Part shown: positions 25,496 to 42,333 of the stretch, in pieces
Position numbering within the stretch: the first letter of the stretch is position 1
How the letters are laid out: every line of letters begins with the position of its first letter
Origin: Aureimonas sp. OT7
GTDB lineage: Bacteria; Pseudomonadota; Alphaproteobacteria; Rhizobiales; Rhizobiaceae
Length of the DNA: 64,000 nucleotides
Direction: 5' to 3'
Assembly: GCF_014844055.1 (NCBI RefSeq)
Contig: NZ_CP062167.1
Coordinates: 3,261,501 to 3,325,500 of the forward strand
The notes under the pieces: generated by a model
Seen by the model: the letters and a program-made list of their open reading frames with translations, nothing else
Databases searched by the model: none
Told to the model about the DNA's origin: nothing
Program-made: the position numbers and the translations under genes

Positions 25496-25900
25496 TCATG
25501 CCAGCGGCCGGCGAACGGCCAGGAAGCGCAGCAAGCCGTGGTAGTTTGGCTCCTCCGGCTGGCGCCTGGCCTCGGCGAACTGCAGTTTCAGGTGCACCAC
25601 ACCATTGTCCGCCAACGGCAGGACCTTGTCGTGAAGGGCCTCGCAAAGCCGGTCCATGATCTCGAAGGTGGCGGCTTTGCCGCCACCGCCGGTCCAGACA
25701 TGCAGTGTCAGCACGTCTTCGGCGGCATTGTCGTGCCCGCAGGTCCAGTCCACGACGGCCGTTCGGCCCAGGGTAACATAGGGAAAGTCGTGCCCCCGCA
25801 CCGAGCGCCCGAAGACGTTCGGCCCCCCCAGAAGCCGCGTTACGGCGGCATCTGCGGCAAGCGTCGAAAGGATTGCGGTTTCAACTGCGGCTTCCGCCAT
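25496..25900 (-). CDS. DUF3168 tail-completion (terminator) protein
   Basis: Protein of 134 residues in the DUF3168 family. The pattern is AVETAILSTLAADAAVTRLL, then FPYVTLGRTAVVDW, then LTLHVWTGGGGKAATFEIMDRLCEAL and a final basic beta strand region. Members are tail-terminator proteins of long-tailed phages and are present in the Rhodobacter-type gene transfer agent. The start at 25900 has GGAG 11 bases upstream. It stands at the far end of the cassette after the lysis genes, without the major tail or tape-measure genes that normally accompany it. It is either a moron or a leftover of an exchange. Confidence 0.75.
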   Translation of the reverse strand: MAEAAVETAILSTLAADAAVTRLLGGPNVFGRSVRGHDFPYVTLGRTAVVDWTCGHDNAAEDVLTLHVWTGGGGKAATFEIMDRLCEALHDKVLPLADNGVVHLKLQFAEARRQPEEPNYHGLLRFLAVRRPLA

Positions 25901-26028
25901 GTCGCGCGCTCCAAGTTCCGAATACGGTCCATTCGACAACATTGGTTAATGTGGCGGGAGTTGGAACGGTTGTCCACGAGGCCGGCAAGAGAATCATTCA
26001 CCTTGTCGGGAGCGTCGAGCGCCGTGGC

Positions 26029-26385
26029 TCAGGCCATGTAGGGCCAGTTTTGCGGCAAAGCGGGATCGCCCCCGATAAAGCGCCGTCCGGCGATGACGGA
26101 ACCGGGCAGCGGCAGCATGGCCGGAGCCGCTCCACCCTCGCAGAACCGGGCGAGATCCATGATCGTCTGCTCCGACAGCAGCGCGCAACAGGCGGCATGC
26201 TCGCCCTTCGGCGCAACCGTCGTGCCGGCCCACCGCAGGAAGACGTACCATGGCGTCCGCAGCGCCCATTGGCCGGGGCACCGGGCAGGATCGAGAAAGG
26301 TGGCCGGCGTGTGCCGGGGGCCCCTTGCCGCCCTCTCGGCCGTGACGTCGGCAACGAGCCCGTAACCATCATTCAGTTCAGCCAT
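26029..26385 (-). CDS. Hypothetical phage-cassette protein, 118 aa
   Basis: I do not recognise this protein. It has a good ribosome binding site (GGAG 8 bases before the ATG) and the codon usage of its neighbours. It contains three Trp-rich or Pro-rich patches (CPGQWALRTPWYVFLRW, DPALPQNWPYMA), adjacent Cys residues in HAACCALLSEQT, and no signal peptide or membrane segment. The start MAELNDGYGLVADV is polar. It lies between the DUF3168 gene (128-base gap) and the AT-rich gap after the holin gene, in cassette orientation. Confidence 0.6.
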   Translation of the reverse strand: MAELNDGYGLVADVTAERAARGPRHTPATFLDPARCPGQWALRTPWYVFLRWAGTTVAPKGEHAACCALLSEQTIMDLARFCEGGAAPAMLPLPGSVIAGRRFIGGDPALPQNWPYMA

Positions 26386-26582
26386 GCGTCCACTCCACTC
26401 GTATCGAGGTCATACCCTCGATACCAATATCCTTCATATTTTCAATTTCAAATTTAGAGCCTTGTTGTTTTTCATCGCATGGCTCACAAAATTGCCACTT
26501 AAGGTTTCTTTTCAACAGACTTATCACCCTGATGACCATGTCTCGAAAAGGATTTTGCTCCTATTTTGGGCAATGAGCGGGC
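26386..26582. other. AT-rich non-coding gap
   Basis: About 200 bases between the 118-aa gene and the holin gene are visibly richer in A and T than everything around them (for example the run from 26420 to 26575). I find no minus-strand frame of useful length with a ribosome binding site. A plus-strand frame from 26384 reads through the AT-rich part into the antisense of the holin gene and is not convincing. It may be the scar of a lost gene, a promoter area or the cassette edge. Confidence 0.5.
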
Positions 26583-26605
26583 GCGCGTGGGGATCCCGCA
26601 CGCGC
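26583..26605 (-). terminator. GC-rich hairpin after the holin gene
   Basis: Seven-base arms GCGCGTG/CACGCGC around a loop that itself contains GGGATCCC, starting 9 bases after the holin stop codon. There is no T-run on the minus strand, so it may be a transcript-stabilising hairpin rather than an intrinsic terminator. Confidence 0.35.
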
Positions 26606-26613
26606 CGCCCCCC

Positions 26614-27210
26614 TCAACGGGTCAGACCTCGCAGCCACGCCGACAGCCTGATTCCCGCATCCCAGACCATGACCGCCCCCAGGAACGCTCCGGCCAGGGA
26701 GATGATCAGCCACTTCAGGAAGCGGCTGACCGTCATGGCGGAGCGGACGAGCTCGACCCCTGAACGGATCAGGACGACGTCCTCTTCCGTCAGATGCGCG
26801 AGGTAATCCCGGATCGCAGGATCCAGCGCCGCGAATCGCGTCGTTTCCTCTTCCATCGGATCAACGCCCGATGGGCGGGTCGCACGCCAGCGCCCATAGA
26901 GCGTGCAGGCCGCGCCGATTGCCGAGCCGGTCGCCGCCAGAAGCGCGGCCCCCAAGGTCGGGTCGAACCAATCCGCCCCCATGCCGAGAAGCGGTAACAA
27001 GGGTGCCACGGCAGAGATGACGGCGCCCCAGGTGACGCGGGAACGGTACCAGCTTTCGCCATTGTTCAGGTGTTCCAGGGCCGGCAGGATATGCCGCGTC
27101 ATCACCTCGGCGGCGGCAGGCACGTCCGCGGCCGTCAAAGACAGGGAGGGGCTGTCGGCAATCTGCTTCAGGGCGGCGGATACGGCAGGAGCGATCGATC
27201 TAACGGTCAT
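26614..27210 (-). CDS. Putative holin with C-terminal extension
   Basis: Protein of 198 residues. After an amphipathic N-terminal 60 residues (AALKQIADSPSLSL), the stretch SWYRSRVTWGAVISAVAPLL begins the first membrane segment, followed by a second (LGAALLAATGSAIGAACTLYG). This matches the two-helix phage holin family whose members carry W-Y-x-S-x-x-x-W before helix 1. A further 85 residues add a soluble acidic part (MEEETTRFAALDPAIRDYL) and a third membrane helix (FLKWLIISLAGAFLGAVMVW). Holins permeabilise the inner membrane so that endolysin reaches the wall. It is 45 bases downstream of the lysozyme gene, and AAGGA lies 7 bases before the ATG. The extension is unusual. Confidence 0.7.
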   Translation of the reverse strand: MTVRSIAPAVSAALKQIADSPSLSLTAADVPAAAEVMTRHILPALEHLNNGESWYRSRVTWGAVISAVAPLLPLLGMGADWFDPTLGAALLAATGSAIGAACTLYGRWRATRPSGVDPMEEETTRFAALDPAIRDYLAHLTEEDVVLIRSGVELVRSAMTVSRFLKWLIISLAGAFLGAVMVWDAGIRLSAWLRGLTR

Positions 27211-27255
27211 GGCAGGTCCTTGCTGCATTTTTTTGGAGAACGGGTGCGGAAGGCG

Positions 27256-27795
27256 TCATGCGGCCTGCGGGGCAAAAAGCGCGGCCACGTCCACGCATCG
27301 GCCTTTGGCCCACAGGACCGTGCCGGCACGCGTTGCCGTGTAGACATTGGCGAAACCGCCATGGCCGTAGGTGCCGTCAAGGAATAATTTCCTTTCCAGT
27401 CGCCGCCGCGGCAGGATCGCGGCGGGCTTGCGCCATTGGAGGAATCCCTCGGCCGCCCGAGCCCGGTCCCCGCGGTTCAGCGCCTTCGTCAGGCCGGCAT
27501 AGCGAATGGCCCCGGTGTTGTAGTGAAAGCTGACCAGCGCATCGAATTCATGCTGGCAGAGGGGCACCGTCACCGCCGCCTCCACTTCGGCCTCATAACG
27601 GGCGACGTCACGCCGGAACAGATCCAGCGCGGCTTCGACGCTCAGCGCACCAGGCAGGGCTTTCGGGTCGGGCGGTCCGGCTGCCGCAGTATGGCCGACG
27701 CCGACGGTCCATACCCCGACACAGTCCTTATAGGGCGACGTGACGATGCCTTCGTGTCCCGCAAGCTCGGCGAGACCCCGTAAACTCACTTTCAT
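27256..27795 (-). CDS. Phage endolysin, GH24 lysozyme
   Basis: Protein of 179 residues with no signal peptide. The catalytic Glu is Glu15 in LAGHEGIVTSPYKDCVGVWT, followed by VGVGHT, the E-D-T arrangement of T4-type lysozymes. The stretch CQHEFDALVSFHYNTGAI is the usual helical core motif. It cleaves peptidoglycan at the end of a lytic cycle and pairs with the holin gene downstream. AGGAGA lies 9 bases before the ATG at 27795. An intrinsic terminator sits 20-45 bases upstream of the start, so expression needs read-through or a separate promoter. Confidence 0.9.
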   Translation of the reverse strand: MKVSLRGLAELAGHEGIVTSPYKDCVGVWTVGVGHTAAAGPPDPKALPGALSVEAALDLFRRDVARYEAEVEAAVTVPLCQHEFDALVSFHYNTGAIRYAGLTKALNRGDRARAAEGFLQWRKPAAILPRRRLERKLFLDGTYGHGGFANVYTATRAGTVLWAKGRCVDVAALFAPQAA

Positions 27796-27814
27796 CAATC
27801 TGTCTCCTGAAACG

Positions 27815-27841: not shown

Positions 27842-28096
27842 TTATCCGGCGTCCGGCTCGGGCTCCGGCGGCGGGAAGAGGTTAGCCGCCGAGGCGACTA
27901 TTCGTGGCAGCGGCGAAAGCATTTCATGCCATCGCCCGTATTCCGGATCGTACAGGAGCCGCGCCGGCACGACCCATTTTCCGATCAGGTCGCCCAGAAG
28001 CACGCGGCGGGATCCGAGCAGCGCCGTATCGTCGTTCAGGACGGTTGCCTGCGCCCGCTGCGTCGGCGTCATGACGATCCATTCCATTTCGCTCAT
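27842..28096 (-). CDS. Hypothetical small phage protein, 84 aa
   Basis: I do not recognise the family. The start MSEMEWIVMTPTQRAQ shares one base with the stop of the preceding tail gene (TGATG), so the two are translationally coupled. The body has a compact amphipathic pattern (LLGSRRVLLGDLIGKWVVPARLL) and the C-terminus is Pro/Glu-rich (FPPPEPEPDAG). Position at the end of the tail block, before the terminator, suggests a fibre chaperone or tail accessory role, but this is inference. Confidence 0.65.
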   Translation of the reverse strand: MSEMEWIVMTPTQRAQATVLNDDTALLGSRRVLLGDLIGKWVVPARLLYDPEYGRWHEMLSPLPRIVASAANLFPPPEPEPDAG

Positions 28097-28914
28097 CACG
28101 CGCCCCCGACAGCGTTGAGATAGGTTTGCAGGGCGGCGTCCATCGCCACTTCCTGCGCACTGGTTAGGCCCCCGCCGAAATAGGCGACGGCGATGCGCGC
28201 TGTGCTGAAAAGTGTTGCTGTAGACGACGTGCCGGAAAGCAGTCTCTGCGGCCATCGAATTGGACCGCCGGGTGTGGCCGGAATGTTTTTTACGATCCGG
28301 GCGCGCCCCTGCGACCTCACAGAATACTGTGTCGAGTTCTCGCGGGTTCCTCGTGACATGCCCAGCCCATTATGCCCGGCTATGAGTGACGTAGCCTGGG
28401 AAGATGATACCGACTGGAACTGGACCCGGAGCGTTTCCGACGCAGACAGCGGCACGATCTGCATCGCATAGTCCGACGTTCGACCAAGGGCGATACCGGC
28501 CTCGACCGCCACCTGGTTCACCCATATGCCGACGCTGGCACTTTCGAGCGTGAACTTTGCGACGTCCGACCCGCTCCCATCGATTGCCAGATAGGCCGCC
28601 GCACCATCTCCCTTATATCCGCGATCGACGGTGAAAACCGGCGCGGCCCCCGGCGTCAGGTTCAAGAGGTTGCCGCGCCAGTTCAGCCGCGCGGCCTGCG
28701 CGTCGTGCGCCGCCAGGACGTAGAGACCGTCGAGCGTCTGCCAGACGCCCGAGGATTTCAGATCCAGAACGAGCGTGTCGATCAGCTTCGCGCGGGCCTG
28801 GTCGGGCGGCACCGCCATCCGCGCGATGAGGGCCAGTGTATCCATGTCCGGACCGGAGGGTCGGGGGCGGTGACAGAAGGATACGCCGAGGCCGAGCCCG
28901 ATGGCCGGCGCCAT
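28096..28914 (-). CDS. Phage tail-associated protein with LamG/concanavalin-like region
   Basis: Protein of 272 residues. The first 60 residues (MDTLALIARMAVPPDQARAK, IDTLVLDLKSSGVWQTLDGL, VLAAHDAQAARLNWRG) match a segment common in tail proteins of phages of Rhizobiales. It is followed by a beta-rich part with YKGDGAAAYLAIDGSGS and SASVGIWVNQVAVEAGIAL, as in laminin-G/concanavalin-like folds that bind sugars. The C-terminus (LTSAQEVAMDAALQTYLNAVG) is helical. A role in receptor binding is likely from fold and position. It overlaps the spike-base gene and the 84-aa gene by one base each. Confidence 0.65.
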   Translation of the reverse strand: MAPAIGLGLGVSFCHRPRPSGPDMDTLALIARMAVPPDQARAKLIDTLVLDLKSSGVWQTLDGLYVLAAHDAQAARLNWRGNLLNLTPGAAPVFTVDRGYKGDGAAAYLAIDGSGSDVAKFTLESASVGIWVNQVAVEAGIALGRTSDYAMQIVPLSASETLRVQFQSVSSSQATSLIAGHNGLGMSRGTRENSTQYSVRSQGRARIVKNIPATPGGPIRWPQRLLSGTSSTATLFSTARIAVAYFGGGLTSAQEVAMDAALQTYLNAVGGA

Positions 28915-29180
28915 CAGGCGAGACCGACGATGAAGGTTGCCGTCGTGCCGGTCGCCAGCACGCGTGCCGTGCGGACAGGCAGGATCGAGCCGGCAGGGAC
29001 GGCCTTGAACACGACTGCTGCACCCGTCAGCGGGTCCGCCAGGGCTATATCGCCAGCGCCGCCGACATAAACTCCTGTCGTAATATAGCCGAGGTTGGCA
29101 ACATCGTTCGGCGCTACCGCGAAGAAAGCCCCGGCCGGCCCGAAGGGTGCCGCCGGAAAACTGGAATAGCGATCAGGCAT
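28914..29180 (-). CDS. Spike base protein, Rcc01079-like
   Basis: Protein of 88 residues. The pattern VAPNDVANLGYITTGVYVGG, GDIALADPLTGAAVVFKAV, AGSILPVRTARVLATGTTA is that of the head-spike base protein family named for RCAP_rcc01079 of the Rhodobacter capsulatus gene transfer agent, which also occurs in many prophages. It anchors spikes or fibres on the particle. GAGG lies 8 bases before the ATG. An intrinsic terminator lies just upstream. It is coupled to the following tail gene by TGATG. Confidence 0.8.
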   Translation of the reverse strand: MPDRYSSFPAAPFGPAGAFFAVAPNDVANLGYITTGVYVGGAGDIALADPLTGAAVVFKAVPAGSILPVRTARVLATGTTATFIVGLA

Positions 29181-29193
29181 GGTTCACCTCATG

Positions 29194-29216
29194 AAAAAAG
29201 CCGCCCTCGGCGGCTT
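29194..29216 (-). terminator. Intrinsic terminator between fibre and spike-base genes
   Basis: On the minus strand GCCGCC-GAG-GGCGGC is a perfect 6-bp stem with a 3-base loop, followed by six T residues. It lies 26 bases after the fibre stop and 14 bases before the spike-base start codon. Confidence 0.85.
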
Positions 29217-29242
29217 GTGGAAACGGGCTATGATTCCAGCGC

Positions 29243-30094
29243 TCACCAACTGATGATGACCGCCCCGGCTCCTGCGAACGTATAGTATTGGTTAGCCTGG
29301 CTATGCTGACGCGCCGAGCCACCACCGCCCGGCCAGGGTGAGACATCCTCATACCAACCGACGGCTCGTCCACCGAGCGGCCCGCCGGCGATCCCGCTCT
29401 TCGCCTCGGGACCTCCAAGGATGGCTTGCTGGCCTCTGCCGCCATGCTGGTAGAGAGTTGTCGGCATCGGTGCGAAGCCACCGATCGCCACTTCCGAGCT
29501 GCTCTGTGCGGATTTCCCTCCGCCTGCGGTGAGAAAGGTGCCGAACGAACTGTCTCCTCCGTGTGTGCCGGGGCCATTTGCCCCCGTGGCTCCGGCTGCG
29601 CCGACCGTTACGGGAATTATCGCGCCGGGTGTCACGTCGATGTATGACGCCGAATAAGCACCGCCTCCGCCGGAATTCATCAGGGCGCTCGCTGTCCCCT
29701 GGTTGAAGCTGCTGGTACCGCCTCCTGCGCCATAAACCTCCACCCAAACGCGTTTCACACCTGCGGGCACGACCCAGTTTGTCGTACCCGCGGTTCGAAA
29801 GACGACCTTTCCGGGCGCCAGCAGCACATCGACCCGCACCTGCTCGGCGGTTCGGAGCTCGAATGCGGTGCCTGCGGCGTTCGTCCGCATGTACAGTCCG
29901 GCATTTCCCGCTGTTGGCGACGGGAAAAGCGACTTCTGAGTTTCATGCGCCGTCTTAACCGTCGTAAGGGCAGCCGACAGATTGTCGAATTCATTGTCGA
30001 CCTTCTCGGCGGAAATCGTATTGCTGGGTGGCCCCGCGTTGCGGTCCGAAACGAAGTTCTGATTGCGAACAAAATTATTGCCTGCGAATGGCAT
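29243..30094 (-). CDS. Glycine-rich phage tail fibre/receptor-binding protein
   Basis: Protein of 283 residues. The N-terminal 100 residues are a polar attachment region (DRNAGPPSNTISAEKVDNEF, SAALTTVKTAHETQKSLF). The distal part starts FRTAGTTNWVVPAGVKRVWV, a phage fibre-tip pattern, and continues as a glycine-rich domain (AGGGTSSFNQGTASALMNSGG, VTVGAAGATGANGPGTHGG). This resembles adhesin tips in which polyglycine helices pack over a beta core and present receptor loops. It ends FAGAGAVIISW, also typical of that family. It is upstream of the spike-base gene, and a plus-strand gene pair lies just behind its start. Shine-Dalgarno GGGAGAGG is present. Confidence 0.8.
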   Translation of the reverse strand: MPFAGNNFVRNQNFVSDRNAGPPSNTISAEKVDNEFDNLSAALTTVKTAHETQKSLFPSPTAGNAGLYMRTNAAGTAFELRTAEQVRVDVLLAPGKVVFRTAGTTNWVVPAGVKRVWVEVYGAGGGTSSFNQGTASALMNSGGGGAYSASYIDVTPGAIIPVTVGAAGATGANGPGTHGGDSSFGTFLTAGGGKSAQSSSEVAIGGFAPMPTTLYQHGGRGQQAILGGPEAKSGIAGGPLGGRAVGWYEDVSPWPGGGGSARQHSQANQYYTFAGAGAVIISW

Positions 30095-30956: not shown

Positions 30957-32516
30957 CTACTTCCATTCGGAAAACATACGGTTCTCCGATGTCGACGCCG
31001 CTTGTGCTCCCACAACGGCCGCGATTATGTTGGCCCTTCGGGCATTGACTGCATTGGAAAGTTGTGCGGATCGGGCGCCCACTGCGCGAAGCATCCCGGC
31101 ATTGGTTGAAAGGAGGGCATCGGCGACTGCCTCGTCCAGCTTCTGCGGGCGAAGCTTTGCACCAACAGGCGCACCGAGGCGAACGAGGGCAGATCCGAAA
31201 TTGCCTCCGGCGGCATCCGCCGCTGCGTCCACCATATCGCGGCCAAAGCCTGATGACACCGGATTTCCGCCAGCACGTAAAACCTCCGCGCCGGTTTTGA
31301 ACATCTCGTCCTCACGGCCAATCTGCCGCATCAAACGCTCGCCTTTTCCTGGCGATGCGAATACCGGCAGTTCCTTTAGAGTTCGCTCTGTTTGGAACAT
31401 TGATGCCCTGTTTGCCGGCGCCGTTCCCGCTGATGCCTCAAGCCGTGCAAGATGGGGATCTGCGTAGCCGACCCTGAAGCTCGATTGCTCGTCCGCCGAT
31501 CGCGCCAGATAATCCGGAATGGTTTTGCCGGGGTCGGCTCGTATCCCCTGAGCGTGCATGCCGGCGTCAACAGCGTCGATCGAACGCGATGGCGCCCCGC
31601 TTTCCACCAGTTCGCGCTTTGCCCCGGCCGCAGTTTTCTGCGCATCGAATGCATCGCGCATCTGTACACCGAGCCGCTCCGACTGACTGTTCTGCCGGAC
31701 GGACAGCGCTTTCGAGGCATCTGGCTTGAGTATCGATGCAAGCTTCGCCAATCTGTCACGGCCGTATTCGGCTAAGGCATCGACCACGGCAAACTGCGGC
31801 TGACCGTCAGCCGCCGCAGCTTCCAGTGAAGCCGCCAGCTCTTCGATTGTGGAATCGGCCTTTGACGCTAGTCGGCCCACCTCCGCGTCAACCGCAGGGG
31901 CGGGATTTTTCCACGCGCGTGCATAGTCAGCAACCTTCCTGTAAGCGGACTCGCCGTATTCTGCCATGTGAGGCGCAAATTTCCCGACCGCCCCTCCAAT
32001 CACGGCTCCACCGGCCGCTGCACGGAGTCGTTCCTCCAAGTTTCTTCCTGATCCGAACCCGTTCACGGCACCCAGGCCCGCAGATCCCCAGGGAGTTGCC
32101 AGCTGCTTGGCTATCGTACCTGCCCTGGCAAGGCCGATACCCGACGCGACGGGGGCAGCGGCCAGACCGAGGGCGACGCCGCCCGTCAGTTCTCCTGCTA
32201 TGGACGCGTATGGATGCTCGGCCCTGGCCTGTTCCAATCGTTCATTATACGTCTGATTCAAGTCGCTATACGTATCGCCGACCCGCTCCCAAAAACCCTT
32301 TCCGTTATCCTCGGTCGTCATCATCCCGTAAGGTGTCATCAAGGCGGCAGTCAGTTCGTCGCCGAAGTTCAAGGTCAAACCCTGTCCGGCATGCATCGCG
32401 AAGGCGGCCGCCGTGGAACCCAATTCATCGATCGCGCCCTCTAAGTACGAAGGGGCTTTCGGCATCGGATTTTGAAGGTTGCCCCGCGACCCGACCTGAA
32501 ACCCGAAAACGTGCAT
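30957..32516 (-). CDS. Putative internal virion/ejection protein, 519 aa
   Basis: Large, mostly helical, Ala-rich protein with no signal peptide. A hydrophobic Gly/Ala stretch lies near residues 110-175 (IAGELTGGVALGLAAAPVASG, GLGAVNGFGSG, AAAGGAVIGGAVG), followed by long amphipathic helices. Internal core proteins of short-tailed phages that are ejected into the cell have this combination, and the gene lies where such proteins are encoded, after the tail genes. Function is inferred from composition and place only. The start at 32516 has AAGG 9 bases upstream; an alternative is the Met at 32465. Base composition is less GC-rich than the portal and capsid genes. Confidence 0.55.
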   Translation of the reverse strand: MHVFGFQVGSRGNLQNPMPKAPSYLEGAIDELGSTAAAFAMHAGQGLTLNFGDELTAALMTPYGMMTTEDNGKGFWERVGDTYSDLNQTYNERLEQARAEHPYASIAGELTGGVALGLAAAPVASGIGLARAGTIAKQLATPWGSAGLGAVNGFGSGRNLEERLRAAAGGAVIGGAVGKFAPHMAEYGESAYRKVADYARAWKNPAPAVDAEVGRLASKADSTIEELAASLEAAAADGQPQFAVVDALAEYGRDRLAKLASILKPDASKALSVRQNSQSERLGVQMRDAFDAQKTAAGAKRELVESGAPSRSIDAVDAGMHAQGIRADPGKTIPDYLARSADEQSSFRVGYADPHLARLEASAGTAPANRASMFQTERTLKELPVFASPGKGERLMRQIGREDEMFKTGAEVLRAGGNPVSSGFGRDMVDAAADAAGGNFGSALVRLGAPVGAKLRPQKLDEAVADALLSTNAGMLRAVGARSAQLSNAVNARRANIIAAVVGAQAASTSENRMFSEWK

Positions 32517-33761: not shown

Positions 33762-34178
33762 TCAACCTTTCAGCCAAAGGCAATCGTCGGCCAGGAGGCC
33801 GTAGCTGCAAAGAATGTCGCCATCCTCGAAAAAGCCCGGGTGCTGCCCTTCGCAGTGGAAACCGAGCCGTTGCACCAGGCGCCGGGAGGCATGGTTGCCA
33901 TGTTTGACCATGGCGCTGATGCGGCGGCATCGCAGATCCTGGAAGGCGTAGGCGAAAGCCGTGCGCAACAGGCGCCGCGTCAGCCACGCGCCCTCACCCG
34001 CCACGGTCACCCGGATATCGGGACCACGAAACTCGGTGAAGGCGATGCCCCCGACCAACCGGCCATCCCTCATCGCCCCGAAGGCGACGGCGCCGTCCAG
34101 CGCCTGGCAGGATTCGACCCGGGCGGCGATCCAGCCCGCGACATGGGCATGGTGCCCGGTCAGGATGACGTAGCTCAT
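33762..34178 (-). CDS. GNAT-like acetyltransferase in the virion operon
   Basis: Protein of 138 residues starting MSYVILTGHHAHVAGWIA; the ATG overlaps the stop of the gp10-like gene (ATGA). It shows the GNAT order of strands and helices: GAVAFGAMRDGRLVGGIAF, then the acetyl-CoA-binding region TVAGEGAWLTRRLLRTAFAY, then NHASRRLVQRLGFHCEGQHP, the classic N-x-x-x-x-x-L-x-x-L-G-F motif of RimJ/RimL-type enzymes. Phages of this type often encode such a protein among tail genes. Its substrate, host protein or virion protein, is unknown. Confidence 0.75.
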   Translation of the reverse strand: MSYVILTGHHAHVAGWIAARVESCQALDGAVAFGAMRDGRLVGGIAFTEFRGPDIRVTVAGEGAWLTRRLLRTAFAYAFQDLRCRRISAMVKHGNHASRRLVQRLGFHCEGQHPGFFEDGDILCSYGLLADDCLWLKG

Positions 34179-35692: not shown

Positions 35693-36081
35693 AGGTCCAC
35701 CGTCTCGCGCGTGGCGCGCATATGCTCGTTCGCGATGCGGGACAGGGCTTCTTCGCATTGGCGGAAGGCTTCGGCATAATCGAAGCCGTTCGCCTCCTGC
35801 CAGCGCCATTTGACGGCGGCGCGGATGACCGGCGTGTCGAACAGGATGTTGTCCGTATCCAGCGTCGCGGTATCGGTGGCCGCGGCGGCAAGCGGCTTGA
35901 TCCATTTTCCGTCGACGAGCCGCCGCGTATAGGGATAGCGCCGGACGAGCTCGTCGGCCGCCTGTGCAAGCACTGCCAGCATCTGCCTCACGACAGGGTC
36001 GGCATTACCGATGATCGAGGCCGGAGCCGGCAATTGCAGGCCGGGCATGATGGAGCGGATCAGATCGCCGAGTTGCATCAT
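35689..36081 (-). CDS. Head-to-tail adaptor protein (P22 gp4/T7 gp11-like)
   Basis: Protein of 130 residues, helical, of the size and position of the adaptor ring that binds below the portal. Recognisable features are IIGNADPVVRQMLAVLAQAA, DELVRRYPYTRRLVDGKWIK and the C-terminal FRQCEEALSRIANEHMRATR helix, which corresponds to the E-x-A-x-x-R helix in other adaptor proteins. It overlaps the preceding and following genes by ATGA. The assignment is by analogy; only a structure-based search would confirm it. Confidence 0.65.
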   Translation of the reverse strand: MMQLGDLIRSIMPGLQLPAPASIIGNADPVVRQMLAVLAQAADELVRRYPYTRRLVDGKWIKPLAAAATDTATLDTDNILFDTPVIRAAVKWRWQEANGFDYAEAFRQCEEALSRIANEHMRATRETVDL

Positions 36082-36599
36082 CCACGCTCCGCCGCCGTGC
36101 GCCGGCCACCGGGGCGCCCCGGGCGTTGCGACGCGCCCTGCGCCAATGCGGCGCGCAGTTCCGCATTCTCGGCCGCCAACGCGGCGATCTCGGTGCGCAG
36201 CCTCTGCACTTCGGCAGCCCGCTGTGGCCCCTCTTCCCGCAGCGTCTGGAGGAAGGCTTCGGCCCGCTCCTTGGCTTCGCGATACTCGACGGGCGCCGAG
36301 CCGAGGTCGGCGGCGGCGAGCCGCTCAACGGTGCGTATGCCGCGCTCGGCCAGGCCAAGTTGCACGGCCTCGTCCGCCGCGGGCCAGGCACAGAGCGGAA
36401 AGCCCTCGTCGGCCGCCGTTCGGGCCATCGTATAGGCGGCGTATTGCGAAGGGTAGGTGGCGATGTCCGCGGGCCGCGCCCGCCGGACGATGCGCGTGGC
36501 GAAATCGCGGTAGCATTCGAAGTAGGTTTCGAGGCGATAGGTGGCGAGCCCGTCCGGCCCCAGGCCGGACGGCTCTGCCTTGTCGAAGAAGCGGATCAT
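36078..36599 (-). CDS. Hypothetical phage structural-operon protein with coiled coil (173 aa)
   Basis: Residues 1-90 are globular (YRLETYFECYRDFATRIVRR, IATYPSQYAAYTMARTAAD). Residues 95-150 form a likely coiled coil (AAEVQRLRTEIAALAAENAE), and the C-terminus is basic and Gly/Arg/Pro-rich. It sits between the major capsid and the adaptor, where phages of this kind place a connector or head-decoration protein. GAGGG precedes the ATG. I do not recognise the family. Confidence 0.65.
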   Translation of the reverse strand: MIRFFDKAEPSGLGPDGLATYRLETYFECYRDFATRIVRRARPADIATYPSQYAAYTMARTAADEGFPLCAWPAADEAVQLGLAERGIRTVERLAAADLGSAPVEYREAKERAEAFLQTLREEGPQRAAEVQRLRTEIAALAAENAELRAALAQGASQRPGRPGGRRTAAERG

Positions 36600-36670: not shown

Positions 36671-37645
36671 TTAAAGCCCGGTGACGATCAACCGTCCGTG
36701 GCGGTTGCGCTTGTAGCAGGTGAGCGCGCCCATGAAGCCGATATGCTTGGTGACGGCGTCCATGTCCGGGGTGGATTCCGGCAGGTCCAGCTCATCGAAG
36801 CCCCTGCCCTCGTAGTATTCGAGGTTCAGGAAATCCGTGTTCAGGAAGAAGCCGTTATCGTCGGGATGGGCCGAACCGGCGCTCTCGGTGATGACCGTTG
36901 CCGACCGGTACTTCAGCGTATCGAAGCCCAGTGCCGCCGCGTTGGCGTCTGCGTAGCGCTGGTTTTCCTGCAAGCCGCTTTCGTACAAACCGTAGACATC
37001 GTCCGACAGGGTGACGATGTCGGTCTTCTCGGTGCCGACGCAGCACTGGCGGTACAGGGCGCTCATGCCAAGGCGCAACCGCCTGTAGCGTTCCCGGTCG
37101 TCGGCGGCGCCCGCCATGGCAACCGTCGCCGCCTTGTTGCGCCACCACGGCTTGGCCGCGGCGTCGATGCCGCCCACCGTTCCGACGGCCGGCGTATCCG
37201 ACACGATGGCATCCAGGCCCACGAAGGACTTGGCAACGGAGCCGTCGCCGTAGAGGGCCCGCGTGATGCCGGATTTCAGGGTGTTTTCGGCGTTCTGCGT
37301 CTTGGCGCGCAACAGCTTGACGATCTGCGAGCGGCCGGCATTCTTGGCCATTTCCTCGCCCGACAGCGTTATGGAGGCGGCCGCCATGCCCGGCGTGTAT
37401 ACCGCCTCGCCGATCGTCTCCTTCTGCGTGCGGCCGAGGCTGTCGACCCCGTCATACCACCTGAAATCCTCCTCGTCGAAAACGACGGGGCCGCGAATGT
37501 CCGACCCGCCATCCAGGGGGGTGATGCGCCCCTTCTGCTGCAGGGTGGCCAGCACGAGGTTGGACCCCGTGACGTTATCGTAGAGTTGCCGGCGATAATT
37601 GGCGATCGTCGTGGCAAGCAACTGGCGAAGCTGGGCTGCGTTCAT
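36671..37645 (-). CDS. Phage major capsid protein
   Basis: Protein of 324 residues. It has the composition and motifs of coat proteins encoded after portal and scaffold in this phage group: YDNVTGSNLVLATLQQKGRI, a long central part with IVKLLRAKTQNAENTLKSGI and YGDGSVAKSFVGLDAIVSD, and the C-terminal VTKHIGFMGALTCYKRNRHG. No protease domain is encoded nearby, so maturation by cleavage is not expected. GAGGA lies 8 bases before the ATG. The following 71-base gap holds a strong hairpin. Confidence 0.85.
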   Translation of the reverse strand: MNAAQLRQLLATTIANYRRQLYDNVTGSNLVLATLQQKGRITPLDGGSDIRGPVVFDEEDFRWYDGVDSLGRTQKETIGEAVYTPGMAAASITLSGEEMAKNAGRSQIVKLLRAKTQNAENTLKSGITRALYGDGSVAKSFVGLDAIVSDTPAVGTVGGIDAAAKPWWRNKAATVAMAGAADDRERYRRLRLGMSALYRQCCVGTEKTDIVTLSDDVYGLYESGLQENQRYADANAAALGFDTLKYRSATVITESAGSAHPDDNGFFLNTDFLNLEYYEGRGFDELDLPESTPDMDAVTKHIGFMGALTCYKRNRHGRLIVTGL

Positions 37646-37660: not shown

Positions 37661-38362
37661 TCAAGCGTTGACCTGCCGGAGCGCGATGGCGATCGCGTCA
37701 TCCAGGTTCCTGACGTCCGGTGTGCGGGCAAAGCCGCCGCCACCGGGCCGAATGTTCTGCCGGGCCGCAAGCGCGGCATCGGAGGCCGCGCGGCGGGCCT
37801 TGTCCGTTCCGTCCGCGTGCAGCTTCGCCTGGCGGTTCGCCAGTTCCGCCTCGATCAGGGTTTCGCGGATCTGCGGGTTCATCCACACGGCGTGGCTGTA
37901 GGCCTGCGCCAGGTCCATCGCGGGATCGGCCCGGATCAGCGATGCCATCTCGCCCGACACGGCCTCGTAATGCGGGTGGCGCGGCGCGCCGGCCTCGTCC
38001 GCTGCATCCCGGAACTCGGCTATCCGGCGCATGACGGAGGCGCGTGGATCCGCTTGCGCGCCGCCCGCATGCACGGCCTCGCGGAGCGCGGCGCCGATAT
38101 CCACACCATGCCCGGCGGCATGGCGCGCCACCAGCTTCAGGTAGCCGGCGGGGTCGGAGGCGGCATAGCGCTCCATTTCGATGAGATGGCCGATACCGCC
38201 AACCTCGTCGAAGCCGGACTCCTTCATGCGGGCCATCAGATCCTCGGTGATGAGGGCGCGCAGCCGGGCGCCGAGATCGTCCACCCCGACCGGTGGCGCG
38301 GCGTCATGCGGCAGCGGGGCATCTTCCTGTTTCAGGTCCGTATCCACGTTAACATCCCTCAT
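37661..38362 (-). CDS. Putative scaffolding protein
   Basis: Protein of 233 residues, acidic and helical, located between portal and capsid where scaffolding proteins are encoded. It starts MRDVNVDTDLKQEDAPLP and contains the helices LGARLRALITEDLMARMKES and NPQIRETLIEAELANRQAKL. Its charged C-terminal third (LHADGTDKARRAASDAALAA) would suit coat binding. It ends 15 bases before the capsid start and overlaps the 64-aa gene by 14 bases. The call rests on size, composition and order; there is no diagnostic motif. Confidence 0.65.
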   Translation of the reverse strand: MRDVNVDTDLKQEDAPLPHDAAPPVGVDDLGARLRALITEDLMARMKESGFDEVGGIGHLIEMERYAASDPAGYLKLVARHAAGHGVDIGAALREAVHAGGAQADPRASVMRRIAEFRDAADEAGAPRHPHYEAVSGEMASLIRADPAMDLAQAYSHAVWMNPQIRETLIEAELANRQAKLHADGTDKARRAASDAALAARQNIRPGGGGFARTPDVRNLDDAIAIALRQVNA

Positions 38363-38543
38363 GCGTAGAGCCTTCGGCCGGCCGGATGCCCTTCAGGTCC
38401 CGGGCATCGACGCAGCCATGGCGTTGCAGATCCGCGCGGCGTTCGGCGCGGGTCGAAACCACTCGCCCGGAAATGGGCGAGCGATAGGGTTCGATGTCCC
38501 GGATCAGGCCGGGACATGGAAAATCGGACCGGCAGTCGGTCAT
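38349..38543 (-). CDS. Small conserved phage protein between portal and scaffold (64 aa)
   Basis: The ATG overlaps the portal stop (ATGA), so it is translationally coupled. The core DIEPYRSPISGRVVSTRAER followed by RADLQRHGCVDA is a pattern repeatedly encoded at this point in podoviruses and prophages (Y-x-S-x-x-x-G-x-x-I-x-S-R-x-E-R-x-x-x-L-x-R). It carries three Cys but no zinc motif. Function unknown. Confidence 0.7.
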   Translation of the reverse strand: MTDCRSDFPCPGLIRDIEPYRSPISGRVVSTRAERRADLQRHGCVDARDLKGIRPAEGSTHEGC

Positions 38544-40423
38544 GGGCGTTCCCCTTTGCGGGCGGTTGCGGAAGCGATGGCGCGGGCCGTGTCGAGCGCC
38601 AGTCTGCGGCGCTCGATGTCCATCTCCTGCTGGCCCTCCTCCATGGCCAGGGCATGGCGCTCGCGCTCCATGGCCAGCGCCTCGCGCCGGGCCTGCAGCC
38701 GCACCGCCGCTTCCTCGTCCACCGGGGGCGGGGTCGGCGCCGGCGAGCCGGAGGAGACCGTTTCGGAAACCTGGTCGAGAAGGCTCATGAGGTCGCGGGA
38801 GCCCTTGAACGGGCGCAGCGCGAGTTTCAGCACCTCGCCGACAAGGCGCGGCGGCGCCATTCCGGACTGCACCAGCGGGCCGAAGGTCTGCAGGATGCTG
38901 GCCGCGGCCTGCACCAGCCGGGCGGACGATTCCTGCTCGGCCACCTCATCCGCCGCGATGGTGGAATCGCTTTCGATATCCACCCGGCAGAGCAGCAGCA
39001 TGTCGTTGCGCAGGAAGGATTCCACCTCGGCGTCCACGGTGCGGCCCGTCATCACCGCCAGCGTATCGGCCGAGAAGCACGTGGCGACGATTTCGGCCGC
39101 GATCCGCAGCGTGTCGCGGATACAGGCGTTCAGCGCCCGCCGCCGGTCGTCGATGCGCAGCGTGCCGAAATTGCCCTTGATGCGCTGCGCCGTCGCCGTC
39201 TCGCTGGCCACGGAAGCACCCCTCAGCACATCGGAGATGCCGGTGACCTCGTAGAGCGCCTGCTTGGACTGCTCCCGCGCGCCGTATAAGGCCATCGCCG
39301 TCTGCGCCAGCATATCCAGGGGGATCATCCAGACGTTGCTGGCCAAAGCCTCCATCTCCACGGCCGCGACGGGGATCATCTTGCCGTCCTCGCCCTCCAG
39401 CGCGTCGGCCAGTTCCTCGATCGAGCCGTTGAAGAGACCGCGCACACGCATGCGCTGCATGATGGCGTCGATGCGCTCGGTCAGCCTGGCGATCTCGGCG
39501 GCCAGATCACGATAGATCTCGTATTCGGGCACCGGCACCATGGTATTGCCGGTGGTAACCGCCGTCAGTGGCTCGGCGCAGGGGAAAAAGCCCTTCAGCC
39601 CGAGGCGGTCGCCATCCTGGCGCAGGAAGACGGCCCCGTCCGGCCCGAGCGCGACAAAGGATACGGTGCGCGTCTCGCGGTCCCAGCATTCCCAGACGAG
39701 AGCACGCTTTTCGACCGCCTCGGCGCCATGCCTCTCGTCCTCGTGGTTGGCCGGCCGGTGCACGAAGGCGCCCCGGCACCAGGCCTCGTCGGCGAGCAGC
39801 CGTGCGGCCGCCTCGCCATCGCCGAAGCCGGCCTCCACGGCGGTCCGCGTCAGATAGTGGCGGAACGCGCACCACCCGACATCCTTCCAGCGCCGCACCG
39901 GCTCGCAGACGAAATCCTCCCAGAAGACGTGGTCGAACTCGATGCTCTCCCAGACTTTCCGTGGTTCGGTGACGGGCTGCCCCTGCGCATCCGTGACAGG
40001 CAACCCACCGGCATCCGACAGCGGCATCGGCCGTACCACCGGCGCCCAGCGCACGCGCAGCACCCCGCGCCCCGGCAGCAGGAAATCCTGCACCAGGCGG
40101 CGCAACTCGGAGTCGAGATCGCCGGCATCCACCGCCACGTTCAACGCCGCCTGCAGGATATCGGAGGCACGGTCCGCAACGCCGTCGGCGGGGATCGTGC
40201 GGCGGCGGACATCGGCCCTCGGCGGCTGCTGGTACATCACCGGGGAGAGGATCGACGTGTTGGCGTAAAGCATGTTGAAGCGCCCGCGCCCGGCGGCGCC
40301 GTCGGCTGTCCGCTCGGCACGGTAGATCTCCACCACCTCGCGGCCCTTTTCACGCCAGTCGCGCTCGGCCCGCAGGGCGGCTTCGAGGCGTGTTTCCCAT
40401 TCCTTGGCATCGGCTTCTGTCAC
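38540..40423 (-). CDS. Phage portal protein, P22-like
   Basis: Protein of 627 residues from the GTG at 40423, which overlaps the large-terminase stop (GTGA) and has AGGA 9 bases upstream. The longer ATG start at 40480 would overlap terminase by 61 bases. Portal landmarks: FNMLYANTSILSPVMYQQPP and RADVRRRTIPADGVADRASD near the N-terminus, then LVQDFLLPGRGVLRVRWAPV, FFPCAEPLTAVTTGNTMVPV and EYEIYRDLAAEIARLTERID. Near 400 is YEVTGISDVLRGASVASETA with TAQRIKGNFGTLRIDDRRRA. It forms the twelve-subunit gate for DNA entry. The C-terminal 60 residues are charged helix (ERERHALAMEEGQQEMDIER), as in the barrel of P22-type portals. Confidence 0.88.
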   Translation of the reverse strand: MTEADAKEWETRLEAALRAERDWREKGREVVEIYRAERTADGAAGRGRFNMLYANTSILSPVMYQQPPRADVRRRTIPADGVADRASDILQAALNVAVDAGDLDSELRRLVQDFLLPGRGVLRVRWAPVVRPMPLSDAGGLPVTDAQGQPVTEPRKVWESIEFDHVFWEDFVCEPVRRWKDVGWCAFRHYLTRTAVEAGFGDGEAAARLLADEAWCRGAFVHRPANHEDERHGAEAVEKRALVWECWDRETRTVSFVALGPDGAVFLRQDGDRLGLKGFFPCAEPLTAVTTGNTMVPVPEYEIYRDLAAEIARLTERIDAIMQRMRVRGLFNGSIEELADALEGEDGKMIPVAAVEMEALASNVWMIPLDMLAQTAMALYGAREQSKQALYEVTGISDVLRGASVASETATAQRIKGNFGTLRIDDRRRALNACIRDTLRIAAEIVATCFSADTLAVMTGRTVDAEVESFLRNDMLLLCRVDIESDSTIAADEVAEQESSARLVQAAASILQTFGPLVQSGMAPPRLVGEVLKLALRPFKGSRDLMSLLDQVSETVSSGSPAPTPPPVDEEAAVRLQARREALAMERERHALAMEEGQQEMDIERRRLALDTARAIASATARKGERP

Positions 40424-41928
40424 AGTCGTGTTCCTGATCGTGGGCGCGAAAACGCGTTCTTCGCCATGAAGGGGTCGCACACAGGCAGGCCGGGCCCGTT
40501 GGCCGTGCCACGCATCCTGTCCAGCATCTGCGTCGTCTTGGTCAGTGCATCGACCTGGTCGTCATGCCGGCCGTTCGGGAACACCGTCAGCTCGGCGACG
40601 AGATCGGCCAGCCACGGCGCGCCGCGCCGCAACTTGACCCGGCCGGAGGCCATCTGGCCCTGAAGCGAGCGCGCTCGCGCCACCTTGTCGGTGGTGGACG
40701 CCTCCTGACGGCGGTGGAAGAAAACCCGCCGCTCCGCCATGCGACGGCGCAGGAACGGGCCGATCGACTTGTTGATCTGGCCCGCTTCCTCCGCCCAGGC
40801 CAGCGGATCGTGCGCCTCGACCAGATCCAGCAGCGGTTCGATCCACTTGTCGGGCTCGCCCTTGCCACGCCAAAGGTCGTGGACGTAGAGCGTGCCGTCC
40901 GCATCCATCGCCACCACCACATGAACCGTGTAGTCGCCAGCGTCGGACACCGCGTAGTCGGACCCGCCATAGAAGCGGCAGCCGGCAGGCAAGGTGTCGT
41001 AGTGCGCCAGCCATTCACGGCGGAAGATGTCCCCTTCGTCGGGCGAAGGCCGCTGCTGGAACAGGCTCGCCCAGCTTCTGGGGTTGCGCTCGAACGGCGC
41101 CCAGTGGCTGCGCGGGAACCATTCCGGCCACAGATACTCGCCCGGCCGGCGGCCCAGCGGGTCGTCTTCCCGCTCGGCCCGCGCCGGCAGGCACAGGACG
41201 CGCCATGTCTGGCCGTCCCGGCAGGCGATATCACCGGACTGCCCGTCATATCCTTCCGGCAGGATGCAGCCGGCGAGGTCTTCCTCGTGCCACCGGGTCT
41301 GCACCAGGATCACCGATCCGCCGGGCAGTAGCCGGGTCATCAGGTCGTCGTGGTAGGCATCCAGCGTCTTGCGCCGGATGACCGGGCTTTCTGCATCCTG
41401 GCGTCCCTTGACCGGATCGTCGATCAGGACGAGGTCCGCGCGGTTGCCGGTGATGCCCGAAAGGATACCGCCGGCCATGTATTCCGAGCCATTGGTCAGT
41501 GACCATTCGTCCGCCGCCGCGCTTTCGGCAGACAGGCGCGTGCCGAACAGCCTCTCGAAGGCGGGTTGCCGGACGATGGAGCGGCAGCGGCGTCCCAGCT
41601 TGCGGGCAAGCTCGGTCGCGTAGCACGCGCCGATGACGCGGAAGCCCGGCTTGCGCCCCATCGCGAAGGGCGGCGTCAGCACGCTGGCATAGGTGCTCTT
41701 GGCGCTGCCCGGCGGCATGAACACCATGAGGCGGCCGTTGGCGGCGTCGAGGCAGGTGTCGATGGCGTCCATCAGCAGGCGGTGGTGGGCGGCGATGCCG
41801 TTTTCCACCGCCTCGTCGGGCCGCCCCGGTATGGCGACGGCGTCCGAAAAGCCCGTCAGGCTTTCACGTCCCCTCCGGCGGCGCAGCAGCTCGCGCGCCG
41901 CCTGAGCTGGCGATACTAAGAAGCTCAT
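40420..41928 (-). CDS. Phage terminase large subunit
   Basis: Protein of 502 residues. The ATPase domain has Walker A MPPGSAKSTYAS near 70, Walker B LVLIDDPVKG near 165 and the coupling motif ILVQTRWHEEDL. The RNase H-like nuclease domain shows acidic residues in GGSDYAVSDAGDYT near 320, the central Glu in AWAEEAGQINKS and HDDQVDALT near 455. It cuts concatemeric DNA and pumps it into the prohead. All catalytic motifs are intact. The start at 41928 overlaps the small-terminase gene by 65 bases; a weak GAG precedes it. Confidence 0.93.
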   Translation of the reverse strand: MSFLVSPAQAARELLRRRRGRESLTGFSDAVAIPGRPDEAVENGIAAHHRLLMDAIDTCLDAANGRLMVFMPPGSAKSTYASVLTPPFAMGRKPGFRVIGACYATELARKLGRRCRSIVRQPAFERLFGTRLSAESAAADEWSLTNGSEYMAGGILSGITGNRADLVLIDDPVKGRQDAESPVIRRKTLDAYHDDLMTRLLPGGSVILVQTRWHEEDLAGCILPEGYDGQSGDIACRDGQTWRVLCLPARAEREDDPLGRRPGEYLWPEWFPRSHWAPFERNPRSWASLFQQRPSPDEGDIFRREWLAHYDTLPAGCRFYGGSDYAVSDAGDYTVHVVVAMDADGTLYVHDLWRGKGEPDKWIEPLLDLVEAHDPLAWAEEAGQINKSIGPFLRRRMAERRVFFHRRQEASTTDKVARARSLQGQMASGRVKLRRGAPWLADLVAELTVFPNGRHDDQVDALTKTTQMLDRMRGTANGPGLPVCDPFMAKNAFSRPRSGTRL

Positions 41929-42193
41929 CGTCGCTCAGATCTTTCGGGTTCGTCGGGCCATCGGGGGCGGCGGGGGCGGCGTCGCCGGCGCCCGGCTTGC
42001 CATAGGCGCGGTCCAGGATGGCGTTGGCGGCGGAGATGCGCGCGGCCTCGCTGCCGCCCTCGACGGCGATTTCCACAAGGGCGTCCAGCGCGGCCTCCGC
42101 ATGGCCGCGCGCCAGTTCGGCAAGGCGCGCCCCCTGGGCAACGCCCCGCCTGCGCGCTCTGCCGGTGGCGGCGCTTCGTGCTTGTCGGACCAC
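41864..42193 (-). CDS. Putative terminase small subunit
   Basis: Protein of 109 residues from the GTG at 42193, which has TTGGAG 6 bases upstream. An in-frame start further up (42247) lacks one. The N-terminus is basic (RQARSAATGRARRRG), followed by a helical region LAELARGHAEAALDALVEIA and AARISAANAILDRAYGKPG. That pattern is common in DNA-binding small-terminase-like proteins next to large terminases in Rhizobiales. The Ala/Pro-rich C-terminus overlaps the large-terminase start. It is the first gene after the cassette promoter. Confidence 0.7.
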   Translation of the reverse strand: MVRQARSAATGRARRRGVAQGARLAELARGHAEAALDALVEIAVEGGSEAARISAANAILDRAYGKPGAGDAAPAAPDGPTNPKDLSDDELLSIASSGGARAAAPPEGT

Positions 42194-42304
42194 AGATGCT
42201 CCAACGGGTAGATGCAGGGATCGGAAACGAAAAAGGGCCGCGGCCAAATTTGGCGCAGCCCTTTCAAAACCAGACAGTCGATACAGAAATTCAACCGTAC
42301 GAAT

Positions 42305-42333
42305 CTTCTAGCCGATCACCGTAACGGTGTCAA
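42305..42333 (-). promoter_or_regulatory. Sigma70-type promoter of the phage cassette with an internal operator-like palindrome
   Basis: On the minus strand a perfect TTGACA (42333-42328) is followed after exactly 17 bases by TAGAAG (42310-42305), matching TATAAT at four of six positions. Transcription would start near 42298, about 105 bases before the small-terminase start. Inside the spacer is CACCG-TTA-CGGTG (42317-42329), a perfect 5-bp inverted repeat placed where a bound repressor would block RNA polymerase. No other clear promoter was found for the long minus-strand run down to 32636, whose genes mostly overlap. Confidence 0.7.

Follow-up and report, generated by a model that had tools for sequence, protein, structure and literature searches.

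Probable in situ replacement of the virion genes of a gene transfer agent by a short-tailed phage module in Aureimonas

Introduction

Gene transfer agents (GTAs) of the RcGTA type (Rhodogtaviriformidae, with RcGTA and CcGTA) are the described systems closest to the locus that is the subject of this study. The locus lies in a stretch of 64,000 nucleotides (here called the window) from the closed, 4.18 Mb genome of Aureimonas sp. OT7 (contig NZ_CP062167.1, positions 3,261,501 to 3,325,500), and carries a podovirus-type cassette of packaging, capsid, tail and lysis genes. In its chromosomal locus and flanking genes, in the gafY/gafZ gene pair, in the gene g8 and in its vertical inheritance the cassette agrees with the RcGTA type, as it does in its promoter, with a palindromic core between the -35 and -10 boxes, and in its terminator-like leader; however, all its other structural genes are podoviral, with a short-tail set instead of a long-tail one, and GTA_TIM, the domain of RcGTA g15, is absent. 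GafY is described as a homologue of DnaA domain IV (available text of PMC9632790), and the accessible part of a study of CcGTA reports that GafZ binds a palindrome between -35 and -10 and lets the polymerase pass terminators (PMC11150451). With GTAs in general the cassette shares a fixed site, vertical inheritance, purifying selection and the lack of integration and replication genes in the cluster.

BaGTA of Bartonella, a GTA of the same order, likewise has a phage module unlike that of RcGTA. The available text of PMC3610622 describes about nine co-located BaGTA genes, including a portal gene of 1863 bp, and pairs them with a second, ROR segment, which by description sets BaGTA apart from the cassette; that text gave us no description of an RcGTA cluster being replaced under GafYZ. 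In a sample of 394 genomes of the family, 48 have a match to the large terminase (TerL) of the cassette (E <= 1e-20), none of them smaller than 3.4 Mb, and the two smallest genomes (1.1 and 2.0 Mb) have no match to its portal protein. A classification of 2022 evaluated, in its available text, three independently exapted GTA groups: RcGTA-like, BaGTA and BhGTA (PMC9662315).

Results

Position of the cassette

We compared 21 Aureimonas genomes (the genus sample), the 394 family genomes and, as a control for gafZ, 14 genomes. Five of the genus sample carry the cassette, namely OT7 itself (G000), A. altamirensis A31 (G011) and DSM 21988 (G013), A. fodinaquatilis CAU 1482 (G017) and A. frigidaquae (G014); the other 16 are referred to as RcGTA genomes. 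The DSM 21988 contig stops inside the module, of which it covers the greater part together with the neighbours on the right. Related modules are found in A. mangrovi (G006) and Aureimonas sp. Leaf427 (G396). An earlier note on this DNA had suggested a domesticated, GTA-like element of the short-tailed class, and our strongest evidence goes beyond it: the site is the RcGTA locus itself, with promoter, leader and gafYZ activators kept.

The right edge of the locus is marked by one host gene, presumably of the family UPF0260, which adjoins the RcGTA cluster in 16 genus genomes and the podoviral cassette in five. RcGTA TerL and portal genes lie at the site in all 16 RcGTA genomes, and the RcGTA capsid gene and g8 (a gp17-type gene) in 15. 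In the exception, G009, the cluster is interrupted, TerL and portal being present and other open reading frames (ORFs) replacing the capsid gene through g8; here the GTA locus is broken in another way. GTA_TIM occurs in exactly these 16 genomes and in none of the five with the cassette. The four relatives are collinear with the window at the same site (blastn), as the earlier note had expected of a domesticated element, and at each of the seven RcGTA sites that were extended the outer flanks, with their response regulator, histidine kinase and penicillin-binding protein genes, are collinear too. The five genomes, the collinear flanks and the common leader rule out chance placement at the GTA locus. 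TerL, portal and capsid proteins of the RcGTA cluster in genome G003 have no significant match in the window, and the RcGTA capsid has none in OT7, DSM 21988 or A. fodinaquatilis and only distant ones (33-36% identity), elsewhere in the genome, in A31 and A. frigidaquae. A like placement was looked for in other genera through 22 TerL loci of the named genome collection; at 19, the three Aureimonas cassette genomes being set aside, no GTA flank, gaf gene or RcGTA gene lies within the fetched flanks. Scattered over the family is another GTA_TIM type, for the most part within a frame of about 1324 amino acids (G003:C1:2775963-2776859 and 15 others, E <= 2e-155), which may belong to an RcGTA-related prophage.

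One RcGTA gene is still in place. The leftmost gene, which the earlier note had counted as the last of a late-gene series that is otherwise real, is an RcGTA relic; its gene number we take to be g8. It aligns over its full length with 18 other g8 sequences (in an alignment and tree of 19), which rules it out as a podoviral gene. It is intact in all four cassette genomes that cover it, even in A. frigidaquae where the module has collapsed, and is the only RcGTA gene found there; a function in the new particle may explain its survival.

Retained control elements

Directly behind the UPF0260-type gene, in all 21 genomes, stands a promoter composed of TTGAC, a 17-nucleotide spacing, TAG and a downstream element like ACaGTCGA; position 42333, at which the earlier note had let the cassette end, belongs to its -35 box. 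In the five cassette genomes this promoter and its leader lie directly upstream of the new small terminase gene (TerS). The core CGTNACGG is found between the boxes in 20 of the 21 genomes, and the whole 13-base palindrome CACCGTNACGGTG is complete in eight leaders, three of them from cassette genomes (OT7, A31 and DSM 21988) and five from the 16 RcGTA genomes. Among the latter, 53 columns of the alignment are at least 80% conserved, and the cassette genomes match 30-32 of these. Over the 48-base promoter core, A31 differs from OT7 at one base, DSM 21988 at two, A. fodinaquatilis at 17 and A. frigidaquae at 16, while the synonymous sites of the two genes beside the promoter are 22-29% different between OT7 and the two A. 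altamirensis genomes. Each of the six genomes searched has a single exact copy of the pattern, located here; allowing up to two mismatches adds 0-3 matches per genome, which is the level of chance (1-5 in a backward control), and in OT7 the match at 42286..42333 is the sole one even then. A simple sigma-70 and terminator scan of 42000-42600 called nothing, the leader hairpin included, and the promoter claim rests on conservation across species.

The genes gafY and gafZ (51666-50762) lie side by side in all 21 genus genomes; in OT7 the promoter of the cassette follows about 8.4 kb downstream of them. DUF6456, which we take to be GafZ, is found in 21 of 21 genus genomes and, among the 14 control genomes, in Caulobacter as the sole match, which fits this assignment. 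When DUF6456 is crossed with GTA_TIM over the family, with weak GTA_TIM matches (possibly those of other phages) scored as present, 288 genomes have both, 36 have DUF6456 only, six GTA_TIM only and 64 neither. Thus, 64 of the 100 genomes without GTA_TIM are also without DUF6456: gafZ is often lost with the GTA, though not always. Strong matches account for 27 of the 36 genomes with DUF6456 only, OT7, DSM 21988 and A. fodinaquatilis among them; the other 24, from other genera, are candidates for further GTA replacements, or else reflect assembly gaps.

The region upstream of gafY shows a difference of its own. At about 51720-51740, OT7, A31 and DSM 21988 have in common the palindrome TGTGAATTTATTCACA, at the position where a site that departs by at most one mismatch from GGAA-N4-TTCC is present in 13 of the 16 RcGTA genomes; the available text of PMC9632790 gives this sequence as the RogA operator of Caulobacter. 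The exchange of the cassette may have been accompanied by a change of operator.

Selection and descent

In a tree of two host proteins the genus divides into the five cassette genomes and the other 16 with a support of 100, and A. fodinaquatilis is separated from the other four with a support of 53. A tree of four cassette proteins unites OT7, A31, DSM 21988 and A. fodinaquatilis with a support of 97 and separates them from the copies in A. mangrovi and Leaf427; a tree of TerL only, with A. frigidaquae included, gives 77 for all five. The five cassette genomes are one clade, judging by these trees.

The ratio of nonsynonymous to synonymous substitution rates (dN/dS) lies between 0.007 and 0.25 in most cassette genes. 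Taking OT7 against DSM 21988, A31 and A. fodinaquatilis, in that order, it is 0.007, 0.007 and 0.058 for the capsid, 0.06, 0.05 and 0.10 for TerL, 0.11, 0.10 and 0.18 for the portal, and 0.10, 0.13 and 0.16 for the phrog_5107 protein; for TerS it is 0.36 and 0.20, the third value not being computable. The DSM 21988 contig gives no values left of 27842, so that the endolysin (0.18 and 0.19) and g8 (0.09 and 0.28) have only those against A31 and A. fodinaquatilis. Of the activators, gafY has 0.035 and 0.171 (the third not computable) and gafZ 0.103, 0.189 and 0.19. Between the two A. altamirensis genomes the ratio is 0.014 for the capsid and 0.063 for TerL. Synonymous divergence (dS) above about 1.5, as in most comparisons with A. 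fodinaquatilis, is near saturation and dN/dS from such values is rough; values for A. frigidaquae derive in part from fragments.

Against DSM 21988 and A31, dS is 0.18-0.47 for TerL, portal, scaffold, capsid and the genes through 34175, and 0.26-0.41 for the flanking host genes; the head genes thus behave as expected for vertical descent, and the prediction that TerL, portal and capsid would show dN/dS far below 1 is borne out at a dS like that of the chromosomal core. TerS is lower (0.14-0.17). Towards the left, dS rises: against A31 it is 0.86 for the gene at 32636 and 0.51-0.59 for the lysis end and g8, and in the close species it reaches 0.7-1.55 for the genes from 27842 through 29243. Such values suggest recombination in the left half, not simple descent, and specifically that the attachment genes of the fibre region (27842-30094) recombine.

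Phage relatives and source

The gene order of the cassette, including the GNAT gene where it is annotated, is that of Mx8 and related phages, which have homologous portal, capsid, head-tail and tail proteins; in the phage collection, portal matches are of 27-32% identity (10 records) and capsid matches of 26-32% (11 records). A syntenic head-tail module is shared with Mx8 (Myxoctovirus), Ruegeria phage 45A6, Bradyrhizobium phage ppBjS10J-1, Stenotrophomonas phage BUCT555 and the A. mangrovi prophage. Unlike Mx8-like phages, the cassette is without integrase, repressor, recombination and replication genes, stands under a GTA promoter, and has a shorter scaffold-like protein and reduced ejection genes. 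The scaffold-like protein has 229-233 amino acids in the cassette and 351 in the A. mangrovi prophage, and the genes at its position in Mx8, BUCT555 and ppBjS10J-1 have lengths corresponding to 361-394; the shortening might change head size. Mx8-like phages are reported to be generalised transducers (available text of PMC6070905), and Mx8 to have the usual podoviral gene set (available text of PMC10386132).

Among the 48 family genomes with TerL relatives, only OT7, DSM 21988, A. mangrovi and Leaf427 exceed 45% identity. The A. mangrovi module (TerL 71%, capsid 69%, portal 55%, other genes 33-62% identity) lies elsewhere in its genome, adjoining an open integrase gene, with the RcGTA locus in place, and the 34 ORFs scanned around it include families of primase, antiterminator and partition type. 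The earlier note had held that finding the cassette inside a complete, mobile prophage of close relatives would speak against domestication; something of the kind is seen in the distant A. mangrovi copy, which stands beside an integrase at another site, and in none of the five cassette genomes. Temperate podoviruses like that of A. mangrovi are the likely source of the module. The A. mangrovi prophage itself is not favoured as the direct donor because its TerS, by eye of helix-turn-helix type, belongs to another class (phrog_1482 is present in the region), and the trees place the prophage outside the cassette clade.

Gene content of the cassette

The cassette is a one-strand late-gene series on the minus strand, from TerS (GTG at 42193) to 25496 (Table 1). 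Its PHROG and Pfam matches confirm the podovirus-type packaging, capsid, tail and lysis genes that had been read from the letters, and gene overlaps at the junctions are evident in the sequence as well. The series had also been called apparently intact; the DNA between 30.1 and 30.95 kb is eroded, AT-rich and low in GC, without a convincing gene. We found no integrase, repressor, recombination or replication gene among the scanned cassette genes (Pfam and PHROG), in agreement with the same reading. In a search limited to PF00589, the tyrosine-integrase family, and not extended to serine integrases, the nearest OT7 match lies some 450 kb away from the window, 15 integrase-family matches being found elsewhere in the genome, and no PF00589 match lies within 130 kb, on the same contig, of any of the five copies. 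This rules out an ordinary intact prophage, there being no early gene among the cassette genes and no integrase nearby. PF03237 has a single match in the whole OT7 genome, the cassette TerL, and the scanned flanking genes, for a penicillin-binding protein, a response regulator and CcmE, are host genes.

The 109-residue TerS is of the short type. A basic motif of GAGR type is present in the first 40 residues of 22 of 33 TerS homologues (the cassette TerS or a near copy included) by regular expression, and of one more by eye. Of the ten without it, seven are of what we call the Aureimonas type (one a fragment), two seem to lack their start and one is plainly motif-less; the motif is thus absent from all six full-length Aureimonas-type proteins. 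RcGTA TerS is without an N-terminal DNA-binding domain, a loss that the authors tie to random packaging (available text of PMC6854486). For the putatively DNA-binding motif of the cassette type the parallel is suggestive, though only that.

Among the remaining genes, the capsid protein is 99-100% identical to those of A31 and DSM 21988, and the scaffold-like protein has no Pfam or PHROG match. The product of 34175..35689, with 22 proteins at E <= 0.001 (itself counted), is a putative tail-tube or nozzle protein. At the position of the 519-residue ejection protein, A. fodinaquatilis has a protein of 957 residues, homologous to a 551-residue A. mangrovi protein and without blastp similarity to the OT7 protein at E 0.01. 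The gene at 26614-27210, by its position presumably a holin gene, is a single fused frame in OT7 and two frames in A31, A. frigidaquae and A. fodinaquatilis (a stop in the alignment of the last); since two PHROG families cover its halves, the split is probably not decay. The 118-residue protein has no match in the site stretches of the 16 RcGTA genomes, and an origin from RcGTA g7 was rejected, as it bears no resemblance by eye to the ORF upstream of g8 in G003. A tiny ORF at 38359, with dN/dS of 0.6 or undefined and three stops in A. fodinaquatilis, is therefore probably not a gene.

Table 1. Features of the GTA locus and its control genes in the window.
Feature	Position	Strand	Evidence
gafY homologue, 130 residues, DnaA domain IV-like, GTA activator	51274..51666	-	Pfam Bac_DnaA_C (PF08299) E 1.9e-9
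gafZ homologue (DUF6456), GTA antiterminator, start codon uncertain	50762..51259	-	Pfam DUF6456 E 3.6e-36
UPF0260-type host gene, right edge of GTA locus	42349..42885	-	present in 21/21 genus genomes
GTA promoter core: TTGACA, palindrome CACCGTTACGGTG, TAGAAG, downstream element	42286..42333	-	aligned in 21/21 genomes
Leader hairpin then T run, terminator-like	42229..42265	-	RNA folding, 12 of 21 leaders folded
TerS, small terminase, short type without N-terminal GAGR-type basic motif	41864..42193	-	phrog_15261 E 1.6e-7, phrog_2538 0.0025; homologues
TerL, large terminase	40420..41928	-	Pfam Terminase_6N/6C; phrog_38 E 4.5e-104
Portal protein	38540..40423	-	phrog_12082 E 7e-146
Scaffold-like protein	37661..38362	-	blastp vs A. 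mangrovi (G006) protein E 1e-24; position between portal and capsid genes
Major capsid protein	36671..37645	-	phrog_9953 E 6e-71
Head-tail protein, Mx8 p50 homologue	36078..36599	-	blastp E 4e-6
Tail protein, Mx8 p51 homologue	35689..36081	-	blastp E 0.001 vs Mx8 p51, 5e-6 vs Bradyrhizobium phage protein; phrog_6013 in A. fodinaquatilis homologue
Tail protein at Mx8 p52 position	34175..35689	-	phrog_5107 E 6e-61 (PHROG label amidase)
GNAT acetyltransferase	33762..34214	-	Pfam Acetyltransf_3; phrog_4470; synteny (same place in Mx8 and two other matching phages)
Virion structural protein, Mx8 p54 homologue	32636..33757	-	phrog_6121 E 2e-30; blastp
Ejection/internal virion protein, weakly like Mx8 p57	30957..32516	-	phrog_5880; blastp vs p57 E 3e-4
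Tail-fibre region: 29243-30094, 28914-29180, 28096-28914	28096..30094	-	phrog_863, phrog_12296, phrog_18498
Lysis genes region	26614..27798	-	endolysin and holin-like gene
Endolysin	27256-27795	-	phrog_7 E 6e-38; Phage_lysozyme E 6e-27
Holin-like gene	26614-27210	-	phrog_29088, phrog_35975 (one per half)
118-residue protein, function unassigned	26029..26385	-	tblastn matches in 3/4 other cassette genomes (DSM 21988 contig ends before it)
RcGTA g8 tail terminator, relic of replaced GTA	25496..25900	-	Pfam PF11367 E 1.8e-24; 54% identity to g8 of the G003 RcGTA cluster

Discussion

The comparisons above lead us to conclude, with very high confidence, that the virion module of a GTA gave way in situ to that of a short-tailed phage, under retained control. 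Whether the cassette still is a working gene-transfer particle, in OT7 or A. fodinaquatilis, is a separate matter, which we judge only slightly likelier than its opposite; replacement and working GTA together form the explanation that we think probable overall, with ample room for doubt. The fullest version, in which GafYZ and the old RcGTA promoter drive an unrelated short-tailed particle, derived from a transducing phage and packaging random host DNA, is in our estimation evenly balanced. The domesticated, short-tailed GTA-like element of the earlier note is supported in so far as site, selection and absence of integrase came out as it had predicted; particles filled with random host DNA are a presumed function. 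By anatomy the cassette is GTA-like, and by a structural-gene definition it is no member of the RcGTA family, because GTA_TIM and the RcGTA capsid are absent.

The sequences show that, in an ancestor of the five Aureimonas, the RcGTA structural genes were swapped in place for an Mx8-like module of packaging, head, short-tail and lysis genes, with one breakpoint between the GTA leader and the first gene and the other around g8. The module has since then been inherited vertically under purifying selection. For its working as a GTA we propose a model in which GafY and GafZ would turn on the retained promoter, GafZ loading at the palindrome between -35 and -10, so that RNA polymerase could pass the leader hairpin and transcribe the operon of 16 kb; the palindrome is, by analogy with CcGTA, a candidate GafZ site. 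A TerS without the N-terminal basic motif would allow headful packaging without sequence preference, host DNA would fill the heads, and the cassette holin and endolysin would lyse the cell. With no replication or integration genes linked to it, the cassette presumably cannot spread as a phage.

A number of observations weigh against this interpretation. In A. frigidaquae the collapsed module consists of TerS, a fusion of TerL with part of the portal protein, what remains of the gene at 28096, and the lysis end. Truncation has left the ejection-protein gene with 54 codons in DSM 21988 and 128 in A31, and one A31 head-tail gene is frameshifted. Most leaders have an incomplete palindrome, that of A. 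fodinaquatilis being reduced to the core and that of A. frigidaquae lacking even this, and the promoter cores of these two species have diverged widely from that of OT7. The raised dS of the fibre half departs from that of the flanking host genes, g8 evolves faster in cassette genomes than in RcGTA genomes, and the TerS of the A. mangrovi prophage is of another type. Because 24 other family genomes without GTA_TIM also keep a strong gafZ match, its retention is by itself no proof of use. The GafZ site is argued from analogy, and the TerS motif is a putative DNA-binding one. Finally, purifying selection followed by recent decay would look much like what we see.

The alternative that survives best is a prophage remnant: a podovirus would have invaded the GTA locus, wiped out the RcGTA cluster and lost its early genes, and would now be eroding, the low dN/dS reflecting its phage past or slow decay. 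The collapse in A. frigidaquae, the truncated ejection genes and the frameshift in A. altamirensis, the eroded stretch near 30 kb, the altered promoter cores of A. frigidaquae and A. fodinaquatilis and the integrase beside the related A. mangrovi module are all in its favour. However, the capsid is under strong constraint even between A31 and DSM 21988, and the promoter core is nearly unchanged in both where synonymous sites of the neighbouring genes have diverged substantially. No early gene is seen in the cassette, and the head-gene dS is like that of the flanking core genes, which indicates that the low dN/dS dates from the period of vertical inheritance within the chromosome. We consider a remnant unlikely.

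More doubtful still is domestication for another use, in which GafYZ would trigger lysis and head assembly, for example for the public release of DNA or nutrients, competition among kin or as a decoy interfering with phages, and DNA delivery would have been lost. It would account for the keeping of head, terminase and lysis genes where the ejection gene has been lost in A. altamirensis (the lysis genes of DSM 21988 being beyond the contig end), but the tail and fibre genes are open and under purifying selection, with dN/dS of 0.1-0.25 in OT7, A31 and DSM 21988, one A31 frameshift apart, and the apparent recombination of the fibre region suggests selection on attachment. A split, still mobile prophage, its late module helped by early genes elsewhere (replication genes elsewhere were not searched for), could draw on the scattered integrase-family matches of OT7, but is very improbable given one site in five genomes, the distance to the nearest PF00589 match and the GTA promoter.

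To our knowledge, the cassette is the first GTA candidate to have taken the place of an older GTA within the regulatory locus of the latter. We found no paper on such a replacement in Aureimonas, Aurantimonas, Rhizobiales or Bartonella/podovirus among the titles and abstract openings of open-licence PMC articles, which is not proof of its being unpublished. The Aureimonas cassette is a candidate fourth independently exapted GTA group, and provides a search rule for others: gafZ kept, GTA_TIM missing and a foreign terminase behind the GTA promoter. The locus suggests that bacteria can change the particle shell without changing its controls; if the locus encodes a working GTA with an exchanged virion, the heritable unit of a GTA would be its control circuit together with a chromosomal slot, and the capsid a replaceable part. 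The case is relevant to whether selection favours hosts that have a GTA: a lineage that refills the slot of a lost particle with the particle of another phage, under the same switch, would point to selection for the function itself rather than for the phage genes.

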